From Pigmentiphaga humi (GTDB lineage: Bacteria > Pseudomonadota > Gammaproteobacteria > Burkholderiales > Burkholderiaceae_B), in NCBI RefSeq assembly GCF_900606115.1, contig NZ_UWPJ01000015.1:1-64000 (forward strand): a stretch of DNA of 64,000 bases, given 5' to 3'. Shown piece after piece: positions 40,246-47,163 of the stretch. Position numbers and translations under genes: made by a program. The notes beneath the pieces are model-generated. The model was not told the DNA's origin. It worked only from the letters and a program-made list of their open reading frames with translations, and searched no databases. Within the stretch, counting starts at the first letter, position 1. Every line of letters begins with the position of its first letter.

Positions 40246-41652
40246 ATGCCCATACCGCCGGATCCCTCCATGGCCTTGCTCGACACCGTGCTGCGCGCCG
40301 CCGCGCGGCGCTACCGGCTGCCCGCCGGTGGCATCGATAGCGTGCGGCGCCAGGCAGACAGCCACGCCGCGAGGCTGGCGGCCGTGATCGAGCAGGCCCG
40401 CGAGGATCGTGCACGCGGCCAGACGCCGACTGCGTCGGCCGGGCATGCTTTCGTTGAAGCGCTGGCCGCCATGATCCGCGACGCGATGCGCCCGGAGGCG
40501 GGCGATCCTGTGTTCCAGGCCATGGCGCTGCGCCATCGGCATGCACCGGTGCGCGAATACGCGTCCTTGTCGGCGCATGCCGCGCGGGACCGCCGGCAGG
40601 TGCGCGCGGCGGTGAACGCGCTGGCCCATCCGGCCAGGCTGGAAAGCGTGCAGGCCGGCCCGCAGCGCGAGGCGCTGGCGCGATTGCATGCCGCCGCATC
40701 GTCGCAGTCGTGGCGCGAACTGGATGAAGCGCTGCGGAGCCTGGAGGCACGGCAACACGCAGACGGGACGCCGTTCGCACACAGTCTGGCGCGGCTTCTG
40801 GAGAGCGCCGCATTGCTTCGGCTGGAACGCCTGGCAGCATTGGAACGGGACGACCGCGTGCACCGCTACCAGGCGCTTCGGGATCTCCGCGGTCCGCGCT
40901 CGGGCAGTTCCGCCGCGGCCGAGCAAGGCTATGCCTCGCAGCAGCGTGGCAGGGCGGTCGAGGCGCAGGCCGCGCAGGCGCTGGGCGCGCTGGCCCGGCG
41001 GCTCGACGAGCAGGCGGGAGGAGCGGGGGTGTTCCGTGTGGCGACATCGCTGCTGGTCTCGCCCGCGATAGCCGGCAGCGCGGCGCGCGCCAAGACGGAG
41101 TGGGACGCGGTCCTGCTGCGTCGGGCACATGCCGATGGCGAGGGCCCCGTGTGGGACGTCTGCCTGCTGGTCGAAGCCAAGGCTTCCATCGATGCCGCGA
41201 CGACGGACTTGCCGCGGCTGCTGCGCGGGTTGCGGCTGCTGGCGCAGGCCGGGGCGGACGCTATCTACCCGTTCGAGTCCAGGGAAGGCAGGGTATGCCT
41301 GCGGGGAGCGTCGTTGCGCAAGCTCAGTGCGGATGAACCAGTCCTGGCGCGTTCGGTGCTCTATTGCTGCGACGCATCGGCGGAACCGCCGCGTTTGCTC
41401 GGCGCCGCGAGCCGCATGCAACTGTTGTCCGCGCCCGCCAGCCTGGCATTCGCCGATGCGCTGGAGAACGGCGGGCAGACGGATCTCCGAATGCTGGAGC
41501 CGGTGTGGCATGCGCTGTTGGAGTCCCCGCAATGGGGGGCAGTGCTTCATCAGTACCCGATGCTGCGCCAGGCGCGCGAATTGGCGGTGCACATCGATGA
41601 CCTGAAGGCCGCGATCGCGCGCGTGGCGGAAACCGGGCACGGCAGTTGCTGA
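40246..41652 (+). CDS. Unknown protein with PD-(D/E)XK nuclease-like motif
   Basis: 468 residues, not matched to a named family. The N-terminal 260 residues are helical and Ala/Arg-rich. A nuclease-like core follows: Asp287 in TEWDAVLL, then Glu310-Ala-Lys312 in CLLVEAKAS, giving the D-x(n)-ExK spacing of PD-(D/E)XK enzymes. This is motif reading only and could be chance in a large protein. It is soluble with no signal peptide. ATG 40246 is used; ATG 40270 is an alternative. A small membrane-protein gene follows 31 bases later, and the SOS-linked UdgX operon converges on it, which makes a DNA-processing role worth testing. Confidence 0.6.
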   Translation: MPIPPDPSMALLDTVLRAAARRYRLPAGGIDSVRRQADSHAARLAAVIEQAREDRARGQTPTASAGHAFVEALAAMIRDAMRPEAGDPVFQAMALRHRHAPVREYASLSAHAARDRRQVRAAVNALAHPARLESVQAGPQREALARLHAAASSQSWRELDEALRSLEARQHADGTPFAHSLARLLESAALLRLERLAALERDDRVHRYQALRDLRGPRSGSSAAAEQGYASQQRGRAVEAQAAQALGALARRLDEQAGGAGVFRVATSLLVSPAIAGSAARAKTEWDAVLLRRAHADGEGPVWDVCLLVEAKASIDAATTDLPRLLRGLRLLAQAGADAIYPFESREGRVCLRGASLRKLSADEPVLARSVLYCCDASAEPPRLLGAASRMQLLSAPASLAFADALENGGQTDLRMLEPVWHALLESPQWGAVLHQYPMLRQARELAVHIDDLKAAIARVAETGHGSC

Positions 41653-41683
41653 ACGCTCGGCCATTCCACTCCGGAGCGCCGCC

Positions 41684-41980
41684 ATGTCGTCCAGTCCTGT
41701 TGCAGATAACGAGCCGTCCGTATCGTCCGAGGTGCCGGATGCCTCGCCGGAGTCTCGCTGGGAGCGCCTCAAGGCCTACGACGCCAATCGCCCCGACCTG
41801 CCCGGCGAACATCTGGTCGTATTCGGCGCCGGCGTTTTGCTGATGGTGGCCGGGATGCGCAGCCGCAAGGCGGTGTGGAGCACCTTGCTGACCGCGGCAG
41901 GGACGGCTCTGGTCGGCCGCGCGGCAAGCGGGACGGGAGGCATCGCGCGGGTGGCCAGGGTGGTGAAGCGGCTGCGCTGA
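41684..41980 (+). CDS. Small membrane protein of unknown function
   Basis: 98 residues. An acidic, Ser/Pro-rich N-terminus (DNEPSVSSEVPDASPE) precedes one or two short hydrophobic segments (HLVVFGAGVLLMVAGM and the Ala/Gly-rich TLLTAAGTALVGRAASG), and the C-terminus is basic. The pattern resembles small DUF2892-like inner-membrane proteins, but I cannot assign a family. It is probably co-transcribed with the preceding gene, 31 bases away, and converges with the UdgX gene 16 bases on. Confidence 0.6.
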   Translation: MSSSPVADNEPSVSSEVPDASPESRWERLKAYDANRPDLPGEHLVVFGAGVLLMVAGMRSRKAVWSTLLTAAGTALVGRAASGTGGIARVARVVKRLR

Positions 41981-41996
41981 CGCGCGTGGGCGCGCG

Positions 41997-43484
41997 TCAG
42001 GCCGGAAGCGTGGCTTCGGCCAACTGGCGCGCGCGGGCCAGCGTTTCGGCGATGTGCGCGGCGACCTGCGCCGGCGTGCGGACGCCTTGCACCCGCAAGG
42101 CGTAGGAGGGATGGTACGTCGCCATGACCAAGGCATCGCCCCGGAGCACGGGCGCATCGAGATGATCCTGCAGCGCGGCCGCGCGCCGCAATACCGCCCG
42201 CAGGGCCGTCGCGCCCAGCGCCACGATGACGCGCGGCTTCACGCGCGCGATCTCTTCCTCCAGCCAGGCCGCGCACGCCTCGACTTCCCGTTGGCCCGGC
42301 GTCTTGTGCATGCGCCGCTTGCCGCGCGCCACCCATTTGAAATGCTTGACCGCGTTGGTGAGGTAGACGGTCTCGCGCGCGAGTTCGGCGCGGCGCAGGG
42401 CGTCGTCCAGCACCTGGCCCGCCGGGCCGATGAAGGGCTGGCCGGCCAGGTCTTCCTGGTCGCCGGGCTGCTCGCCCACCAGCATGATGCGGGCGCCCTG
42501 CGGCCCGCAGCCGGGGACGGCCTGGGTGGCGTGACGCCAGAGCTCGCAACGGCGGCACTGGTCGAGCGTGGAGGGCAGGGCGCGCGGCGGCTGCGCGCGG
42601 CCGGCTTCCATCGGCACCGGTTTGCCGGGCATCTCGCCTACCGCGGCAGCTTGGCCGACGCGCCGCGCGCCCGCGCGCGCCTGGGCGATCATGGCGGGGA
42701 TGAGGGGGCCTTCGGGCAGGCCTTTCCAAAAGCGCACCGGCATGTGCTGCACCAGCGCGGCTTCGTTCAGGCGTGCGGGGTTGAAGATGCTCTGGTAGTA
42801 GGCCAGCCACAGCGGCTCGACCTGGTCGGCGGTGGCAGGCATGGCGGCGGGATCGGCCGGAAGCCCGGACAAGTGCATCGCCTGGCCGTCCCACAGGGCC
42901 GAGCCATGGGGCGTGCCTATCCACCACGAAGACTTTCCCATGCGGCGCGCGAAGTGTTCGGCGGCCGAGGCGAGCACGTCGTGGCCGGGTTCGTACCAGG
43001 CCAGGTATTCGGGCATGCCGCCGCCGGCGCGCTGCTGGAAGCGCACGTAGGCGATCATGTCGTGCCGCGCGCGGCGCACGGCCTTCGCCATTGCGTGCAG
43101 GCGCGCGCCATCGTGGTCGGCGGCCGAGGCGACGCTGCGGTCGCCGTTCTGCCAGCGCCACAAGGCGCGGTACAGCAAGGCCCAGCGCTGCGTCGAGCGA
43201 TACAGCGCGGCATGCTGCAGCAGGGCGGCGAAATCCCTGGAGATGCGGACAGGCGCGGCCGGAACGGGCGCGGCGGGTTCGGCCACGGCGCACGTTTGCG
43301 CAGGCGGAGCGGGGGCATAGTCCAGCGTCATCTGCCCCGCGGCCGAAGCGGGCAGGGCGTCGCTTTCCGTCCAGGTGACGGCGTCGGGCGGCCACCCGGC
43401 CGCCAGGGCGCGCAAGGCTTGCGCCCGCCAGCCCGGATAGCCGCCCGCGACTGCCAGGATCCGCATGCCGGTCATGGGGACCAT
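41997..43484 (-). CDS. UdgX-type uracil-DNA-crosslinking protein fused to DUF4130 domain
   Basis: 495 residues. The N-terminal 260 residues match the DUF4130 partner domain (SRDFAALLQHAALYRSTQRW, YYQSIFNPARLNE). The C-terminal part is a family-4-like uracil-DNA glycosylase: CRRCELW cluster cysteines, GEQPGDQEDLAGQPFIGPAG and the diagnostic basic loop GKRRMHKTPG (KRRIH in mycobacterial UdgX), whose His (residue 393) forms a covalent bond to DNA uracil in that protein. It probably acts on uracil-containing DNA. It follows the radical-SAM gene by 4 bases. Start codons at 43484, 43475 and 43466 are all possible; 43475 has the best-spaced GAGGG site. Confidence 0.85.
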   Translation of the reverse strand: MVPMTGMRILAVAGGYPGWRAQALRALAAGWPPDAVTWTESDALPASAAGQMTLDYAPAPPAQTCAVAEPAAPVPAAPVRISRDFAALLQHAALYRSTQRWALLYRALWRWQNGDRSVASAADHDGARLHAMAKAVRRARHDMIAYVRFQQRAGGGMPEYLAWYEPGHDVLASAAEHFARRMGKSSWWIGTPHGSALWDGQAMHLSGLPADPAAMPATADQVEPLWLAYYQSIFNPARLNEAALVQHMPVRFWKGLPEGPLIPAMIAQARAGARRVGQAAAVGEMPGKPVPMEAGRAQPPRALPSTLDQCRRCELWRHATQAVPGCGPQGARIMLVGEQPGDQEDLAGQPFIGPAGQVLDDALRRAELARETVYLTNAVKHFKWVARGKRRMHKTPGQREVEACAAWLEEEIARVKPRVIVALGATALRAVLRRAAALQDHLDAPVLRGDALVMATYHPSYALRVQGVRTPAQVAAHIAETLARARQLAEATLPA

Positions 43485-43488
43485 GCCC

Positions 43489-44700
43489 TCACAGCAGCGC
43501 CAGTTGCTCGGGCGCCCGCGCCAGCGCGCGCCGCAGGCGTTCCGACGGCGGCTCGGCCAAACCGGGCCGGTAGTCTTGCACGACGATGAAGGGCCTGGCC
43601 TTGTCCATGGCGCAGCGCAGCCGGATCAGGTCCTGATAGCGGATGGCGCGCAGGCGGCGCAGTTCAATCAGGCGCTTGGCGTTGCGCATGCCGATGCCTG
43701 GCACGCGCGCGATCAGCCGCTGTGGCGCGCGGTTCAGGTCCACCGGGAACACGCCGCGATGCGCCAGCGCCCACGCCAGCTTGGGGTCGATGTCCAGCGG
43801 CAGGCTGCCTTCTTCCTGGAACAGCTCCTCGGCCTGGAAGCCGTAGCCGCGCAACAGGAAGTCGGCCTGGTAGAGGCGGTGCTCGCGCAGCAGCGGCGGC
43901 GCCTGCATGGGAACGGTGGCGGGGCTGTCGGGAATCGGGCTGAAGGCGGAGTAGTACACGCGCTTGAGTTTGTAGGCGCCGTACAGGGTCTGGGCGGTCT
44001 GCAGGATGGTGCGGTCGTCGGCGTCGTCGGCGCCGACGATCATCTGGGTGCTTTGCCCGGCGGGGGCGCGGCGGGCGGCCTGTTTGTCGTCTTGCGCGGC
44101 TTCCTGCGCCAGGCGGATGGAGCCCATGGCGCGCTTGATGGTGTGCACGCTTTTCTCGGGGGCCAGCCGCTGCAGGGCGCCGCCGGTGGGCAGTTCGATG
44201 TTGACGCTGAGCCGGTCGGCGTAGCGGCCGGCCTCGGTGATCAACAGCGGGTCGGCGTCGGGTATGGTCTTGAGGTGGATGTAGCCGCGGAAGCGGTGTT
44301 CCTCGCGCAGCGACCGGGCGACCTGCAGCAACTGCTCCATGGTGTAGTCGGGGCTGCGGATGATGCCCGAACTCAGGAACAGGCCGTCTATGTAGTTGCG
44401 TCGGTAGAAATCCAGCGTGAGGTCGACGACTTCGCGCGGCGAAAAGCGTGCGCGGGGAACATTGCTGGAGCGGCGGTTGATGCAGTACTGGCAGTCGTAC
44501 TGGCAGAAGTTGGTCAGGAGTATTTTCAGCAGCGAGACGCAGCGGCCGTCGGGCGTGAAACTGTGGCAGATGCCGGCGCCCGTACTGGCGCCCAGCCCTT
44601 CGCGCCCGCGCGAATCCCGCCTGGGCGCGCCGCTGCTGGCGCAGGACGCGTCGTACTTGGCGGCATCCGCCAGGATCTCGAGCTTGGTCGACAGTTGCAT
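43489..44700 (-). CDS. Radical SAM protein of the DNA modification/repair type
   Basis: 403 residues. The cluster motif CX3CX2C is Cys66, Cys70 and Cys73 in NFCQYDCQYC. A C-terminal helix-hairpin-helix (RVPGIGMRNAKRLIELRRL, near 335-375) suggests DNA contact. The N-terminus KLEILADAAKYDASCASSG matches the family annotated as putative DNA modification/repair radical SAM protein (as I recall, TIGR03916), which nearly always pairs with a DUF4130/UdgX gene, as here. The chemistry is not established. It is the first gene of the operon; its start codon is only 11 bases from a perfect LexA box, which indicates SOS control. Confidence 0.9.
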   Translation of the reverse strand: MQLSTKLEILADAAKYDASCASSGAPRRDSRGREGLGASTGAGICHSFTPDGRCVSLLKILLTNFCQYDCQYCINRRSSNVPRARFSPREVVDLTLDFYRRNYIDGLFLSSGIIRSPDYTMEQLLQVARSLREEHRFRGYIHLKTIPDADPLLITEAGRYADRLSVNIELPTGGALQRLAPEKSVHTIKRAMGSIRLAQEAAQDDKQAARRAPAGQSTQMIVGADDADDRTILQTAQTLYGAYKLKRVYYSAFSPIPDSPATVPMQAPPLLREHRLYQADFLLRGYGFQAEELFQEEGSLPLDIDPKLAWALAHRGVFPVDLNRAPQRLIARVPGIGMRNAKRLIELRRLRAIRYQDLIRLRCAMDKARPFIVVQDYRPGLAEPPSERLRRALARAPEQLALL

Positions 44701-44711
44701 GAACGATAGAA

Positions 44712-44731
44712 TACTGTATTTATATACAGTA
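44712..44731. promoter_or_regulatory. LexA (SOS) box
   Basis: TACTGTATTTATATACAGTA, with the CTGT-N8-ACAG core of the proteobacterial LexA consensus. It is part of a longer perfect inverted repeat with 11-base arms AGAATACTGTA and TACAGTATTCT (44708-44735). It lies directly upstream of the radical-SAM / UdgX operon and about 80 bases before the divergent GFA gene. LexA bound here would repress the repair operon until DNA damage. Confidence 0.9.
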
Positions 44732-44812
44732 TTCTATGCCGCGAGCTCGAGGCTGGGCGCGTGGATTTCCGGCCTGGCCGCTTTCCCGATCATCGATATG
44801 GAGACCAGCAGC

Positions 44813-45223
44813 ATGAACGGCAATTGTCTATGCGGGGCCGTCGCCTTCACCTCTCCGGACACCAGGGAACTGAGTGTCTGCCATTGCGGTTTTTGCCGAA
44901 AATGGGGAGGCGGCCCCCTGTTCGTCGTCCATTGCGGACCGAACGTCGTGTTCACGGGGGGCGGCCAGGTCGCCGTCTACCCGTCTTCCAACTGGGCCGA
45001 GCGGGCTTTCTGCAAACGCTGCGGCACGCACCTCTACTACAAGCTGCTGGCCACCGGGGAGTATTTCGTTCCGGCCGGAACCTTCGGCTCGACCGATTTC
45101 GAGCTTTCCAGCCAGATCTACGTCGACAAGCGGCCAGGCTATTACGAACTCGCCAACCGGACTCCCATGCTTACCGAGGCGCAGGTCATCGAGCAATACG
45201 GACAGCCGGGAGACAAACCCTAG
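44813..45223 (+). CDS. GFA-family zinc protein (CENP-V/GFA domain)
   Basis: 136 residues. Zinc-ligand cysteines appear as NCLCGAV, CHCGFCRK and FCKRCGTHLYYK, the order found in glutathione-dependent formaldehyde-activating enzyme-like proteins. Most members have no proven activity. ATG 44813 has GGAG 9 bases before it; an earlier in-frame ATG at 44798 overlaps that site and is less likely. The gene is divergent from the SOS-boxed repair operon and might share its LexA control, but the distance of about 80 bases leaves room for its own promoter. Confidence 0.85.
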   Translation: MNGNCLCGAVAFTSPDTRELSVCHCGFCRKWGGGPLFVVHCGPNVVFTGGGQVAVYPSSNWAERAFCKRCGTHLYYKLLATGEYFVPAGTFGSTDFELSSQIYVDKRPGYYELANRTPMLTEAQVIEQYGQPGDKP

Positions 45224-45248
45224 ACCAGAATCCCGGCGTCCGAGGCAC

Positions 45249-46145
45249 TCATTTCCCGGCGGCTTTCAGCAGCCGATCCGCATAGTCCTGCCACGGCGCG
45301 GTCTTGAGGTCGAGGCCCTCGAACACGCCTTCGCGCGCCAGCCGGGCCACCCAGTCCTGCTTTTCGGCCGTGGCGCTGGTCATGAAGGGATCGAAACCGG
45401 CTTCCTGCACGGTCCGGGCGGATTCGCGCATTTCCTCGGCGCGGCGCTTGCCGTGCTGCACGACGCGGCTGAAGAAGTAGGCGCCTTGCTTGGTCCAGTC
45501 GATCTGCGGGAAGGTTTCCTGCAGGGTGGGCAGCACGTGGTCTTCGACGCCGTAGAAGCGCGCGGTGGCGTAGCTTTCGATCACCAGCGCCTCCAGGCCC
45601 TTGATCATGACGCTGCGGCTCATCTTGATGGCCGAGGCGATGCCCAGTTCCTCGGACACCGGCTTGGCGTCCATGCCCCAGCCGTTCAGCGTCGCGGCCA
45701 GGCTTTGCGCCTGCTTGCCGCCCAGCAGCATGGGGACGCGGATGCCGTAGGGCGGCACCGAGGTCATGACGCCGGCTTCGACGTAGCGGGCGCCGGCGGC
45801 TTCCAGCGCCGCGGCAGCGGTTTTCTTGGTGCCGGGCGAGGCGGAATTCAGGTCGAGGAAGAGCGTGCCCGCGCGCACGTGGCGGGCGGCTTCTTCGGCA
45901 ACGGCCAGCGTGTTGGAGGCGGTGACGGCCGAGATCAGCAGGGTGGCCTTTGCGCACAGGGCGGCCATGCTGTCGACGGCTTCGATGCCGGCCGCCTTGG
46001 CCGTTTCGCGCGCCGCGGCGCCGTCCGCGCCGGCGAATTTCGTGTCCCAGGCGTAGACGGCCTCCACGCCCTCCTTGCCGAGCAGGCCGCGGCCGAAGAT
46101 GCCGCCGACCTCGCCGAGTCCGATGATGCCCAAGGTAACGTTCAT
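45249..46145 (-). CDS. NAD(P)-dependent dehydrogenase, 6-phosphogluconate-dehydrogenase-like with DUF1932 domain
   Basis: 298 residues. N-terminal Rossmann fold GIIGLGEVGGIFGRGL, then DLNSASPGTKKTAA and a helical C-terminal domain of the DUF1932 type (KMSRSVMIKGLEALVIES, with the Lys in the catalytic position). Relatives oxidise beta-hydroxyacids. It is the last gene of a unit with an alpha/beta hydrolase, a cupin and a Bug receptor, but a 94-base gap with an inverted repeat precedes it, so it may also have its own promoter. The substrate is unknown. Confidence 0.85.
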   Translation of the reverse strand: MNVTLGIIGLGEVGGIFGRGLLGKEGVEAVYAWDTKFAGADGAAARETAKAAGIEAVDSMAALCAKATLLISAVTASNTLAVAEEAARHVRAGTLFLDLNSASPGTKKTAAAALEAAGARYVEAGVMTSVPPYGIRVPMLLGGKQAQSLAATLNGWGMDAKPVSEELGIASAIKMSRSVMIKGLEALVIESYATARFYGVEDHVLPTLQETFPQIDWTKQGAYFFSRVVQHGKRRAEEMRESARTVQEAGFDPFMTSATAEKQDWVARLAREGVFEGLDLKTAPWQDYADRLLKAAGK

Positions 46146-46176
46146 GTGCCCCTCGCTATGTGTTGGTTGGTTGATT

Positions 46177-46214
46177 GATTCGGTATCTGTAACCGGCAAT
46201 CGTACAACCGAATC
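46177..46214. promoter_or_regulatory. Inverted repeat upstream of the DUF1932 dehydrogenase
   Basis: GATTCGGT (46177-46184) and ACCGAATC (46207-46214) are perfect 8-base arms with a 22-base spacer, set in the only AT-leaning gap of the cluster. It could be an operator or an mRNA stem. Confidence 0.3.
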
Positions 46215-46239
46215 GGGGCAGGGATCGTTGCCCGGGCGG

Positions 46240-47163
46240 TCAGTCCGCGTCGTCCAGCGTTCGCGCCACGAAAGCGGCCGCATCGCGGGTGGCCGCGCGT
46301 GCGACGGGGCTGTCTTCGCCGTAGGCCGAAAAGCCGTGCGGCATGCCGGGGTAGACCGCGAGCTCGCAGGGGCGGCCCGCATCGCGCAGCAGCGCCGCGA
46401 ATTGCCGCGAGTCTTCGATCAGCGGATCGGCGTCGCCCACGCCCAGCCATGTGGGCGGGAAACCGTCCAGGCCGGTTTTGGCCGGCACCGCGGCCGTGGG
46501 GGGATCGGGCCACGCGCCGCCGAGATATTGCCGCCAGACCCACTTCGACTGCGGCCGCAGATTCTCCCGCGGTCCGCCGAGGTTCCCGTAGAACAGGGCC
46601 AGCGCCGGCAGGGCGGCAGGATCGGCGCCGGTATCGGCCAGGCGGCGCCAGGCCAGTACGCACAGCGAGGCGCCGGCCGATTCGCCCCACAGCACGGCCC
46701 GCCCGGGCAGTCCGAGCTCGCCGGCGCGCGCCAGCAGCCCGCGTACGCCCGCCACGACGTCATCGCGCTGGGCGGGGAACACGTGCTCGGGGGAGCGCCG
46801 GTAATCCAGCGCCACGACGGCGCGGCGCGTAGCCTGGGCAATGCCGCGGCAGACCGCTTCATGCGAGTCGAGCCCGCCCGCCCACCAGCCCGCCCCGCGC
46901 ACGAACACCACGAAGGCCTCGCCCGCTTCGTCCCGGGGCCGGTACAGGCGCGCGCGGATCGGGCCGGCGGCGCCGTCCACGGTCAAGTCGGTGGTGCCGC
47001 CTATGGCGGGCAGGGCGGCGTTGACGGCGCGGAAATAGCGGTCTTGCTGGGCGCGCGCTTCGGCCAGGGGAAGCGCCGTGGGGTCGGCTTGCGCGGCGCC
47101 TTCGGCCTTGAGGCGCGTCTGGACGGCGGCCAGCGCCGGGTCGACCGGGGCGAGCGCCGTCAT
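46240..47163 (-). CDS. Alpha/beta hydrolase, hormone-sensitive-lipase-like
   Basis: 307 residues. Catalytic Ser162 is in WGESAGASL, with Asp246 in GVGDADPL and His276 in GMPHGFSAYG. The usual HGGG oxyanion motif of this family is altered: the position reads VRGAGWWAGG (residues 88-97), with Arg replacing the His. The C-terminal cap and DYRRSPEHVFP are typical. It probably hydrolyses a small ester or lactone in the pathway of its operon. Its ATG overlaps the stop of the cupin gene by 4 bases (ATGA), so the two are translationally coupled. Confidence 0.85.
   Translation of the reverse strand: MTALAPVDPALAAVQTRLKAEGAAQADPTALPLAEARAQQDRYFRAVNAALPAIGGTTDLTVDGAAGPIRARLYRPRDEAGEAFVVFVRGAGWWAGGLDSHEAVCRGIAQATRRAVVALDYRRSPEHVFPAQRDDVVAGVRGLLARAGELGLPGRAVLWGESAGASLCVLAWRRLADTGADPAALPALALFYGNLGGPRENLRPQSKWVWRQYLGGAWPDPPTAAVPAKTGLDGFPPTWLGVGDADPLIEDSRQFAALLRDAGRPCELAVYPGMPHGFSAYGEDSPVARAATRDAAAFVARTLDDAD

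Follow-up and report, generated by a model that had tools for sequence, protein, structure and literature searches.

A predicted LexA-controlled operon of radical-SAM and DUF4130 proteins with UdgX as an optional module

The window analyzed here, a 64,000-nucleotide stretch of the Pigmentiphaga humi genome (assembly GCF_900606115.1, contig NZ_UWPJ01000015.1), carries a two-gene operon behind a LexA box: a radical S-adenosylmethionine (radical-SAM) gene of the TIGR03916 family is followed by a gene that fuses a DUF4130 domain (TIGR03915) to UdgX (TIGR03914), a domain of the uracil-DNA glycosylase (UDG) type. Judged from the sequences of relatives, the LexA-controlled core of this operon is the pair of radical-SAM protein and DUF4130, with UdgX as a module that is intact here but optional. 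The first-pass annotation of this DNA had the gene content and order right, with all three families scoring over their cut-offs (Table 1). It had also centred the operon on uracil capture by UdgX, an emphasis that the comparison does not support: among 84 Pseudomonadota genomes with the radical-SAM gene, 20 have no UdgX over the family cut-off, and a 200-base scan still finds the box in 18 of them.

The LexA box and its conservation

The box, TACTGTATTTATATACAGTA, is the sole CTGT-N8-ACAG in the window, and with 0.44 expected this core by itself is not significant. It ends 11 bases before the radical-SAM ATG, which is the first possible start codon, as inspection of the open frame found no ATG, GTG or TTG upstream of the ATG at 44700. 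A perfect box at this place and distance had been noted in the first-pass annotation and is confirmed, as is the surrounding inverted repeat, although its arms form 14 perfect pairs and not the 11 originally given. The full 12-position pattern TACTGT-N8-ACAGTA has four perfect sites in the 5.12-Mb genome, against about 0.04 expected from the base composition of the window. The other three belong to recA (565 bits), to imuA (224 bits), where a gene for a Y-family polymerase follows, and to a radical-SAM gene of the PA0069 type (462 bits), while lexA itself (218 bits) has a one-mismatch box. The perfect boxes at recA and imuA and the near-perfect one at lexA identify the box of the operon as a LexA box, a promoter-placed operator resembling the genome's own lexA and recA operators. 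Allowing up to two mismatches yields 19 genomic sites versus 50 for a reversed-pattern control, so only the best sites are informative and the looser ones carry no weight.

Three further sites of the same genome were noted. The PA0069-family gene (L003:365-1510, contig C28) lies at a perfect box (L003:1501-1520), with a frame that looks helicase-like by eye across that box from it. A DprA-like gene (L007:536-1438), which at 175 bits falls short of the cut-off of 191, has its start 62 bases past a box with one mismatch at L007:1501-1520, and this DprA paralogue is possibly under SOS control. At L006 a one-mismatch box (1501-1520) is followed by a small frame of about 95 amino acids (MYTVTLQDYPQIPDD...).

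Conservation was assessed in a draw of 398 genomes of the phylum, 84 of which have TIGR03916 over cut-off; 83 loci were surveyed besides that of the window. In 75 of the 83 loci, and in 40 of 45 genera, the 100 bases before the radical-SAM start hold a box; same-size control windows taken from these loci give 1 of 996, and shuffles 6 of 1660. When the scan is extended to 200 bases, 78 of 83 loci have a box, counted as CTGT-N8-ACAG with no more than a single mismatch or as a GAAC/GTTC-N7 repeat without any. In L109 and L124 the box reaches into the start codon, and these loci, boxless in the shorter scan, show it in the longer one. A larger set of 163 loci takes in named loci that are the best 80 of at least 577 relatives, and as 51 of those 80 are named Pseudomonas, rates were taken from the phylum draw instead. 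Over the 163 loci, exact matches number 68 for the CTGT type, 15 for GTTC and 42 for GAAC, while the reversed patterns give 1, 0 and 1 (exact matches in at most 2 of 163 loci). The first-pass annotation had called for such a survey and staked its reading on the box not being absent from all related genomes; the box proved widespread. Its claim that the pair is under SOS control is likewise borne out, on sequence evidence only, and DNA damage very probably induces the operon. The pair of radical-SAM and DUF4130 genes occurs widely among bacteria.

The palindrome could instead be an operator or promoter element of a divergent GFA-like gene (44813-45223; PF04828, 52.9 bits), which starts 81 bases past the box and may share the control region of the operon. 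That it serves this gene and is not a LexA site is extremely improbable, because its form is that of the boxes at the genome's own recA, imuA and lexA, and because across the phylum a box stays with the radical-SAM gene, in many loci as the GAAC/GTTC-N7 type.

Closer to the window, the radical-SAM gene is found in 26 of 200 genomes of the same family, and 24 of these 26 loci, the window's included, have a box with at most one core mismatch (L246 has two and L249 three). The closest relative among the named matches listed is Bordetella genomosp. 13, with 87% identity in the radical-SAM protein. The gene is patchy in the window's own genus, being present in 6 of 11 genomes listed. Two operon lineages occur there, with 63% (L241, L242) and 72-87% (L250, L259, L265) identity to the window's radical-SAM protein, and they differ in box-to-start spacing, which suggests that the operon moved horizontally together with its operator.

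The 40 phylum loci with a GAAC-N7-GAAC box show a particular geometry. In 21 of them the box ends exactly 2 bases from the called start codon, and 10 have a TTG 18 bases upstream of the box, which would place a TATA-like hexamer inside the box and set the transcript start at about the ATG. Only 26 of the 163 loci have a Shine-Dalgarno-like tetramer ahead of the radical-SAM gene. By this geometry, SOS transcripts of the GAAC-N7-GAAC loci are possibly leaderless.

UdgX as an optional module

DUF4130 scores over its cut-off in all 84 radical-SAM genomes, and in the window it adjoins the TIGR03916 gene. This pairing is part of the description of TIGR03916 (rSAM_link_UDG), and NCBIfam names already link the families. 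DUF4130 without a radical-SAM gene over cut-off occurs in only three further genomes of the draw; these loci (L230, L231 and L232, of one genus code) all have GTTC-N7-GTTC near the DUF4130 start. UdgX exceeds its family cut-off in 78 genomes, of which 63 also carry the radical-SAM gene, in an operon mostly with a LexA box, and 15 do not. Radical-SAM genomes without UdgX over cut-off number 21, namely 20 with DUF4130 only and G387, whose fused UdgX is degenerate and whose locus (L106) was counted neither with the 20 nor with the 63. The UdgX-free count is 20 and not 23 because L079, L080 and L085 are cut by the end of the stretch or contig and UdgX is present in those genomes; DUF4130 was not seen at L175, where the stretch ends about 150 bases past the radical-SAM match. 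The box is kept in 60 of the 63 other loci fetched, L106 included.

The radical-SAM protein is equally constrained with and without UdgX. No column of its alignment splits the 62 UdgX members from the 20 UdgX-free ones, and of 14 columns invariant only among UdgX members, 13 are broken by one sequence each. As no column tracks UdgX, the radical-SAM protein is kept whether or not UdgX is there. A tree of 89 radical-SAM proteins requires 9 changes of UdgX state by parsimony, at least 7 of them on well-supported branches, and the group holding Bacteroides, Clostridia and Acinetobacter members has no UdgX. UdgX is absent from the five distant loci examined (Bacteroidota, Clostridia, Acinetobacter and a gut contig; the loci, not the whole genomes). 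Conversely, 16 of 17 free-standing UdgX loci, none of them mycobacterial, lack an exact box, one of these having a one-mismatch core 118 bases off; the seventeenth, L215, retains the last part of DUF4130 and is therefore an operon remnant.

These distributions bear on the proposal of the first-pass annotation that the radical enzyme serves to release or repair the cross-link formed when UdgX captures a uracil site in DNA. In favor of release, the two genes form one operon with a LexA box in front, UdgX retains its cross-linking residues, and the fate of UdgX-DNA complexes is open, with PMC10359453 suggesting RecA-dependent pathways or proteases. We nevertheless regard the proposal as very improbable in view of the 20 genomes that keep radical-SAM gene and DUF4130 without UdgX over cut-off, the 15 of 78 UdgX genomes that have no radical-SAM gene, the missing boxes at free-standing UdgX loci and the lack of any radical-SAM column that follows UdgX. 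Since UdgX is optional, the radical enzyme is probably not there to undo the UdgX trap; release cannot be its general role, although it may be a side activity in fused lineages. On these sequence comparisons UdgX is probably an accessory that can be separated from the core, and acting on it is probably not what the radical enzyme is for.

A base-excision system, in which the UDG domain removes uracil and the helix-hairpin-helix partner assists, has a precedent in PMC8565304, which puts a COG1573-COG4277 operon under SOS motifs in Bacteroidetes as a putative UDG-based excision system. We consider it quite improbable here: the UDG is of the UdgX type, which in Mycobacterium smegmatis captures without turnover (PMC10359453), it does not reach its cut-off in the 20 genomes in which the rest of the operon stays, and its partner is a radical-SAM protein.

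Optional as it is, the fused UdgX looks intact. In the window it combines a family score over the curated cut-off with motif A (GEQPG), the R-loop KRRxH and motif B (HPSxxxR); the R-loop reads KRRMH, just as the first-pass annotation had it. The R-loop histidine is kept in 58 of 59 fused relatives aligned, the exception probably being L064, where UdgX lies in another frame, and this conservation marks the fused UdgX as a domain under selection. The Fe-S ligands of UdgX, CxxC and a later cysteine, are present in the window and replaced or missing in 7 of the 59, one of which has a broken frame. The other six (L098, L100 and L107 among them) have lost these cysteines and kept the R-loop histidine and other active-site residues. 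UdgX also appears to be decaying in place in two loci: L106 has neither GEQPG nor an R-loop motif, the UdgX of L064 is in a frame of its own, and the radical-SAM and DUF4130 frames of both remain open. Searched against solved structures, the profile of the fusion protein retrieved UdgX structures at 254 bits, with only the UDG part matched.

The radical-SAM/DUF4130 core and its proposed function

The radical-SAM protein belongs to its superfamily by PF04055 (30.2 bits versus a cut-off of 29.5) and by the CxxxCxxC motif. Six cysteines are invariant in 41 sequences that reach down to about 34% identity and take in Bacteroidota and Bacillota members: C66, C70 and C73 of this motif and, in addition, C20, C45 and C54. 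Because the three extra cysteines are invariant, they suggest an auxiliary Fe-S cluster or other metal site. Auxiliary Fe-S clusters are known in sulphur-inserting radical-SAM enzymes. The helix-hairpin-helix of the first-pass annotation is recognizable but weak, with an HHH_3 score of 21.4 bits under the cut-off of 27; it is stronger, at or just under the cut-off, in two distant members. TIGR03916 is the sole NCBIfam match of the protein at E up to 0.01, which leaves it outside the spore photoproduct lyase/SplB family. In DUF4130, R148, F149, P166, F178, R181, I189, W226, R238, P249 and E258 are invariant in all 29 sequences aligned, and in Pfam they match no other family.

One possible explanation for the pair is a mutagenesis module, in which bases such as thymines would be modified by the two proteins during the SOS response. 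The box is of the same type as that of the genome's own imuA, and a figure legend of PMC3765255 has DUF4130 as a predicted mutagenesis-related enzyme linked to SplB-like radical-SAM proteins and UDGs. We hold this to be rather unlikely, as no polymerase gene adjoins the operon in the window, the passages of that paper on DUF4130 give no mechanism, and the invariant DUF4130 residues offer no link to another family.

The reading that we moderately favor is that of a LexA-repressed SOS operon with a radical-SAM/DUF4130 DNA-processing core and UdgX as an accessory. DNA damage would lead RecA to trigger LexA cleavage, which would free the promoter presumed to lie under the inverted repeat (44706-44737). 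The core product would be a two-protein DNA-processing enzyme; the pairing of the genes is observed, and their joint action is the conjecture. Its radical-SAM protein would combine the core [4Fe-4S] cluster, the predicted three-cysteine auxiliary cluster and a helix-hairpin-helix docking on DNA, and the core would most likely alter or reverse a damaged or blocking nucleotide. In about three-quarters of the Pseudomonadota copies drawn, that of the window included, DUF4130 is fused to UdgX. Judged by its residues, the fused UdgX should covalently capture uracil sites in DNA, and would probably shield them during the SOS state.

Several points weigh against this reading. First, five of the 83 loci (L046, L077, L082, L083 and L087) are without any scanned box type in the 200-base scan. 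Of five distant members, only two Clostridia have an exact LexA-type site of the expected form, GAAC-N4-GTTC before or at the radical-SAM gene; none was found at the Bacteroides, Acinetobacter and gut-contig loci, the last having only GGA-N5-TCC 198 bases off. Second, sub-cut-off matches to the UdgX profile occur in 11 of the 20 UdgX-free genomes (at best 154 bits, in G360); we take these for other UDGs or linker remnants. Third, the fused UdgX is under clear selection and may matter more than 'accessory' suggests. Finally, the auxiliary cluster is predicted from one kind of evidence, cysteine invariance, and a search of solved structures with the radical-SAM profile found no relative.

A bolder version would make the two-cluster radical-SAM protein and DUF4130 an unrecognised SOS repair enzyme, with the fused UdgX of most Pseudomonadota copies as its covalent anchor. 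The anchor would hold the enzyme to uracil sites where single-stranded DNA is damaged, and a single complex would then carry out both capture and radical repair. This version, which we consider speculative and decidedly unlikely, likens the fused UdgX to SRAP proteins, which shield abasic sites. SRAP proteins (YedK/HMCES) are SOS-associated and cross-link to abasic sites, which makes them a comparison for how UdgX might work; their domain is unrelated, and Pfam (E up to 0.01) found no SRAP domain in either protein of the operon.

Known systems and the surroundings of the operon

SOS control of this kind of operon is already published for other groups. PMC8565304 places the COG1573-COG4277 operon among the SOS networks of Bacteroidetes, citing SOS regulation reported earlier in Verrucomicrobia and Alphaproteobacteria, and PMC3828012 lists Clostridium acetobutylicum CAC3343-CAC3344 with a predicted LexA site, CAC3344 being 'of unknown function'. 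In both, as in the window, an SOS motif is predicted for an operon of two genes, one of them a radical-SAM gene of this kind; the window differs in its CTGT-N8-ACAG-type motif and its DUF4130-UdgX fusion partner. In the Bacteroides locus and the two Clostridia loci surveyed here, the partner is DUF4130 alone, unlike the fusion of the window. Additions over the passages of PMC8565304 and PMC3765255 are the dispensability of UdgX and the three extra invariant cysteines. An Acinetobacter protein annotated as this radical-SAM protein is upregulated on desiccation (PMC13130816), and the excerpts of PMC12700426, PMC6120978, PMC5435343 and PMC10776899 do not mention the operon. Among the open-access papers searched, none was found that links UdgX to radical SAM or to the SOS response.

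The UdgX of M. smegmatis has GEQPG, the KRRxH R-loop and HPSxxxR in common with that of the window, and its structures match the fusion profile, whereas the latter is fused to DUF4130 and stands behind a LexA box. SplB and PA0069-type proteins are, like the window's, radical-SAM proteins tied to DNA repair and SOS, but the window's protein is in a different NCBIfam family and has the three extra invariant cysteines and the C-terminal helix-hairpin-helix. PMC10359453 describes the natural role of UdgX, a protein used as a tool to capture uracil, as largely unknown. That the core keeps its box without UdgX moves the question to the lesion handled by radical-SAM protein and DUF4130, for which Pseudomonas species offer natural comparisons with and without UdgX. 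Among laboratory species, Pseudomonas putida (L164) has the UdgX-free type of operon, and the control genome Caulobacter vibrioides matches the radical-SAM, DUF4130 and UdgX families.

Features of the operon are collected in Table 1. Of 161 loci, 101 have radical-SAM and DUF4130 genes that by our start calls overlap by 1-40 bases; the two genes are 0-30 bases apart in 26, more than 30 apart in 11, and of unsure start call in 23. The frequent overlap fits translational coupling in most loci.

Table 1. Coordinates of the operon, its box and the principal protein features within the window
Feature	Position	Strand	Remarks
TIGR03916 radical-SAM gene, 403 aa	43489-44700	minus	551.8 bits vs cut-off 343.5; PF04055
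DUF4130-UdgX fusion gene, 495 aa	41997-43484	minus	family profile matches; 4 bases past the radical-SAM stop codon
DUF4130 / TIGR03915 domain	42711-43445	minus	180.8 bits vs cut-off 112.25
UdgX / TIGR03914 domain	42039-42704	minus	236.1 bits vs cut-off 189.95
Inverted repeat (arms 44706-44719 / 44724-44737) enclosing LexA box TACTGT-N8-ACAGTA (44712-44731)	44706-44737		similar position in relatives
Radical-SAM [4Fe-4S] motif CxxxCxxC (C66, C70, C73)	44482-44505	minus	invariant, 41 sequences
Extra cysteines C20, C45, C54, N-terminal to the radical-SAM core	44539-44643	minus	invariant, 41/41 sequences; metal site predicted
C-terminal helix-hairpin-helix, residues 320-349	43654-43743	minus	sub-cut-off match here
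R-loop KRRMH; H393, expected cross-linking histidine	42306-42320	minus	role per PMC10359453

No known RNA family matched at gathering score in 41000-46500, and no sigma-70 consensus was found on the minus strand in 44500-45000. Anti-phage defence was considered and rejected, as PADLOC models gave no match to the radical-SAM or fusion protein at E up to 0.01. In a check for mobile cargo, 158 of 72,556 records of plasmids matched, with Phaeobacter accounting for 58, as did 10 of 50,697 phage records. Two of these ten are Acinetobacter records of 240 kb; the remaining eight are named 'Bacteriophage sp.' and carry no annotation. Among viral contigs, 2 of 71 candidate stretches are relatives.

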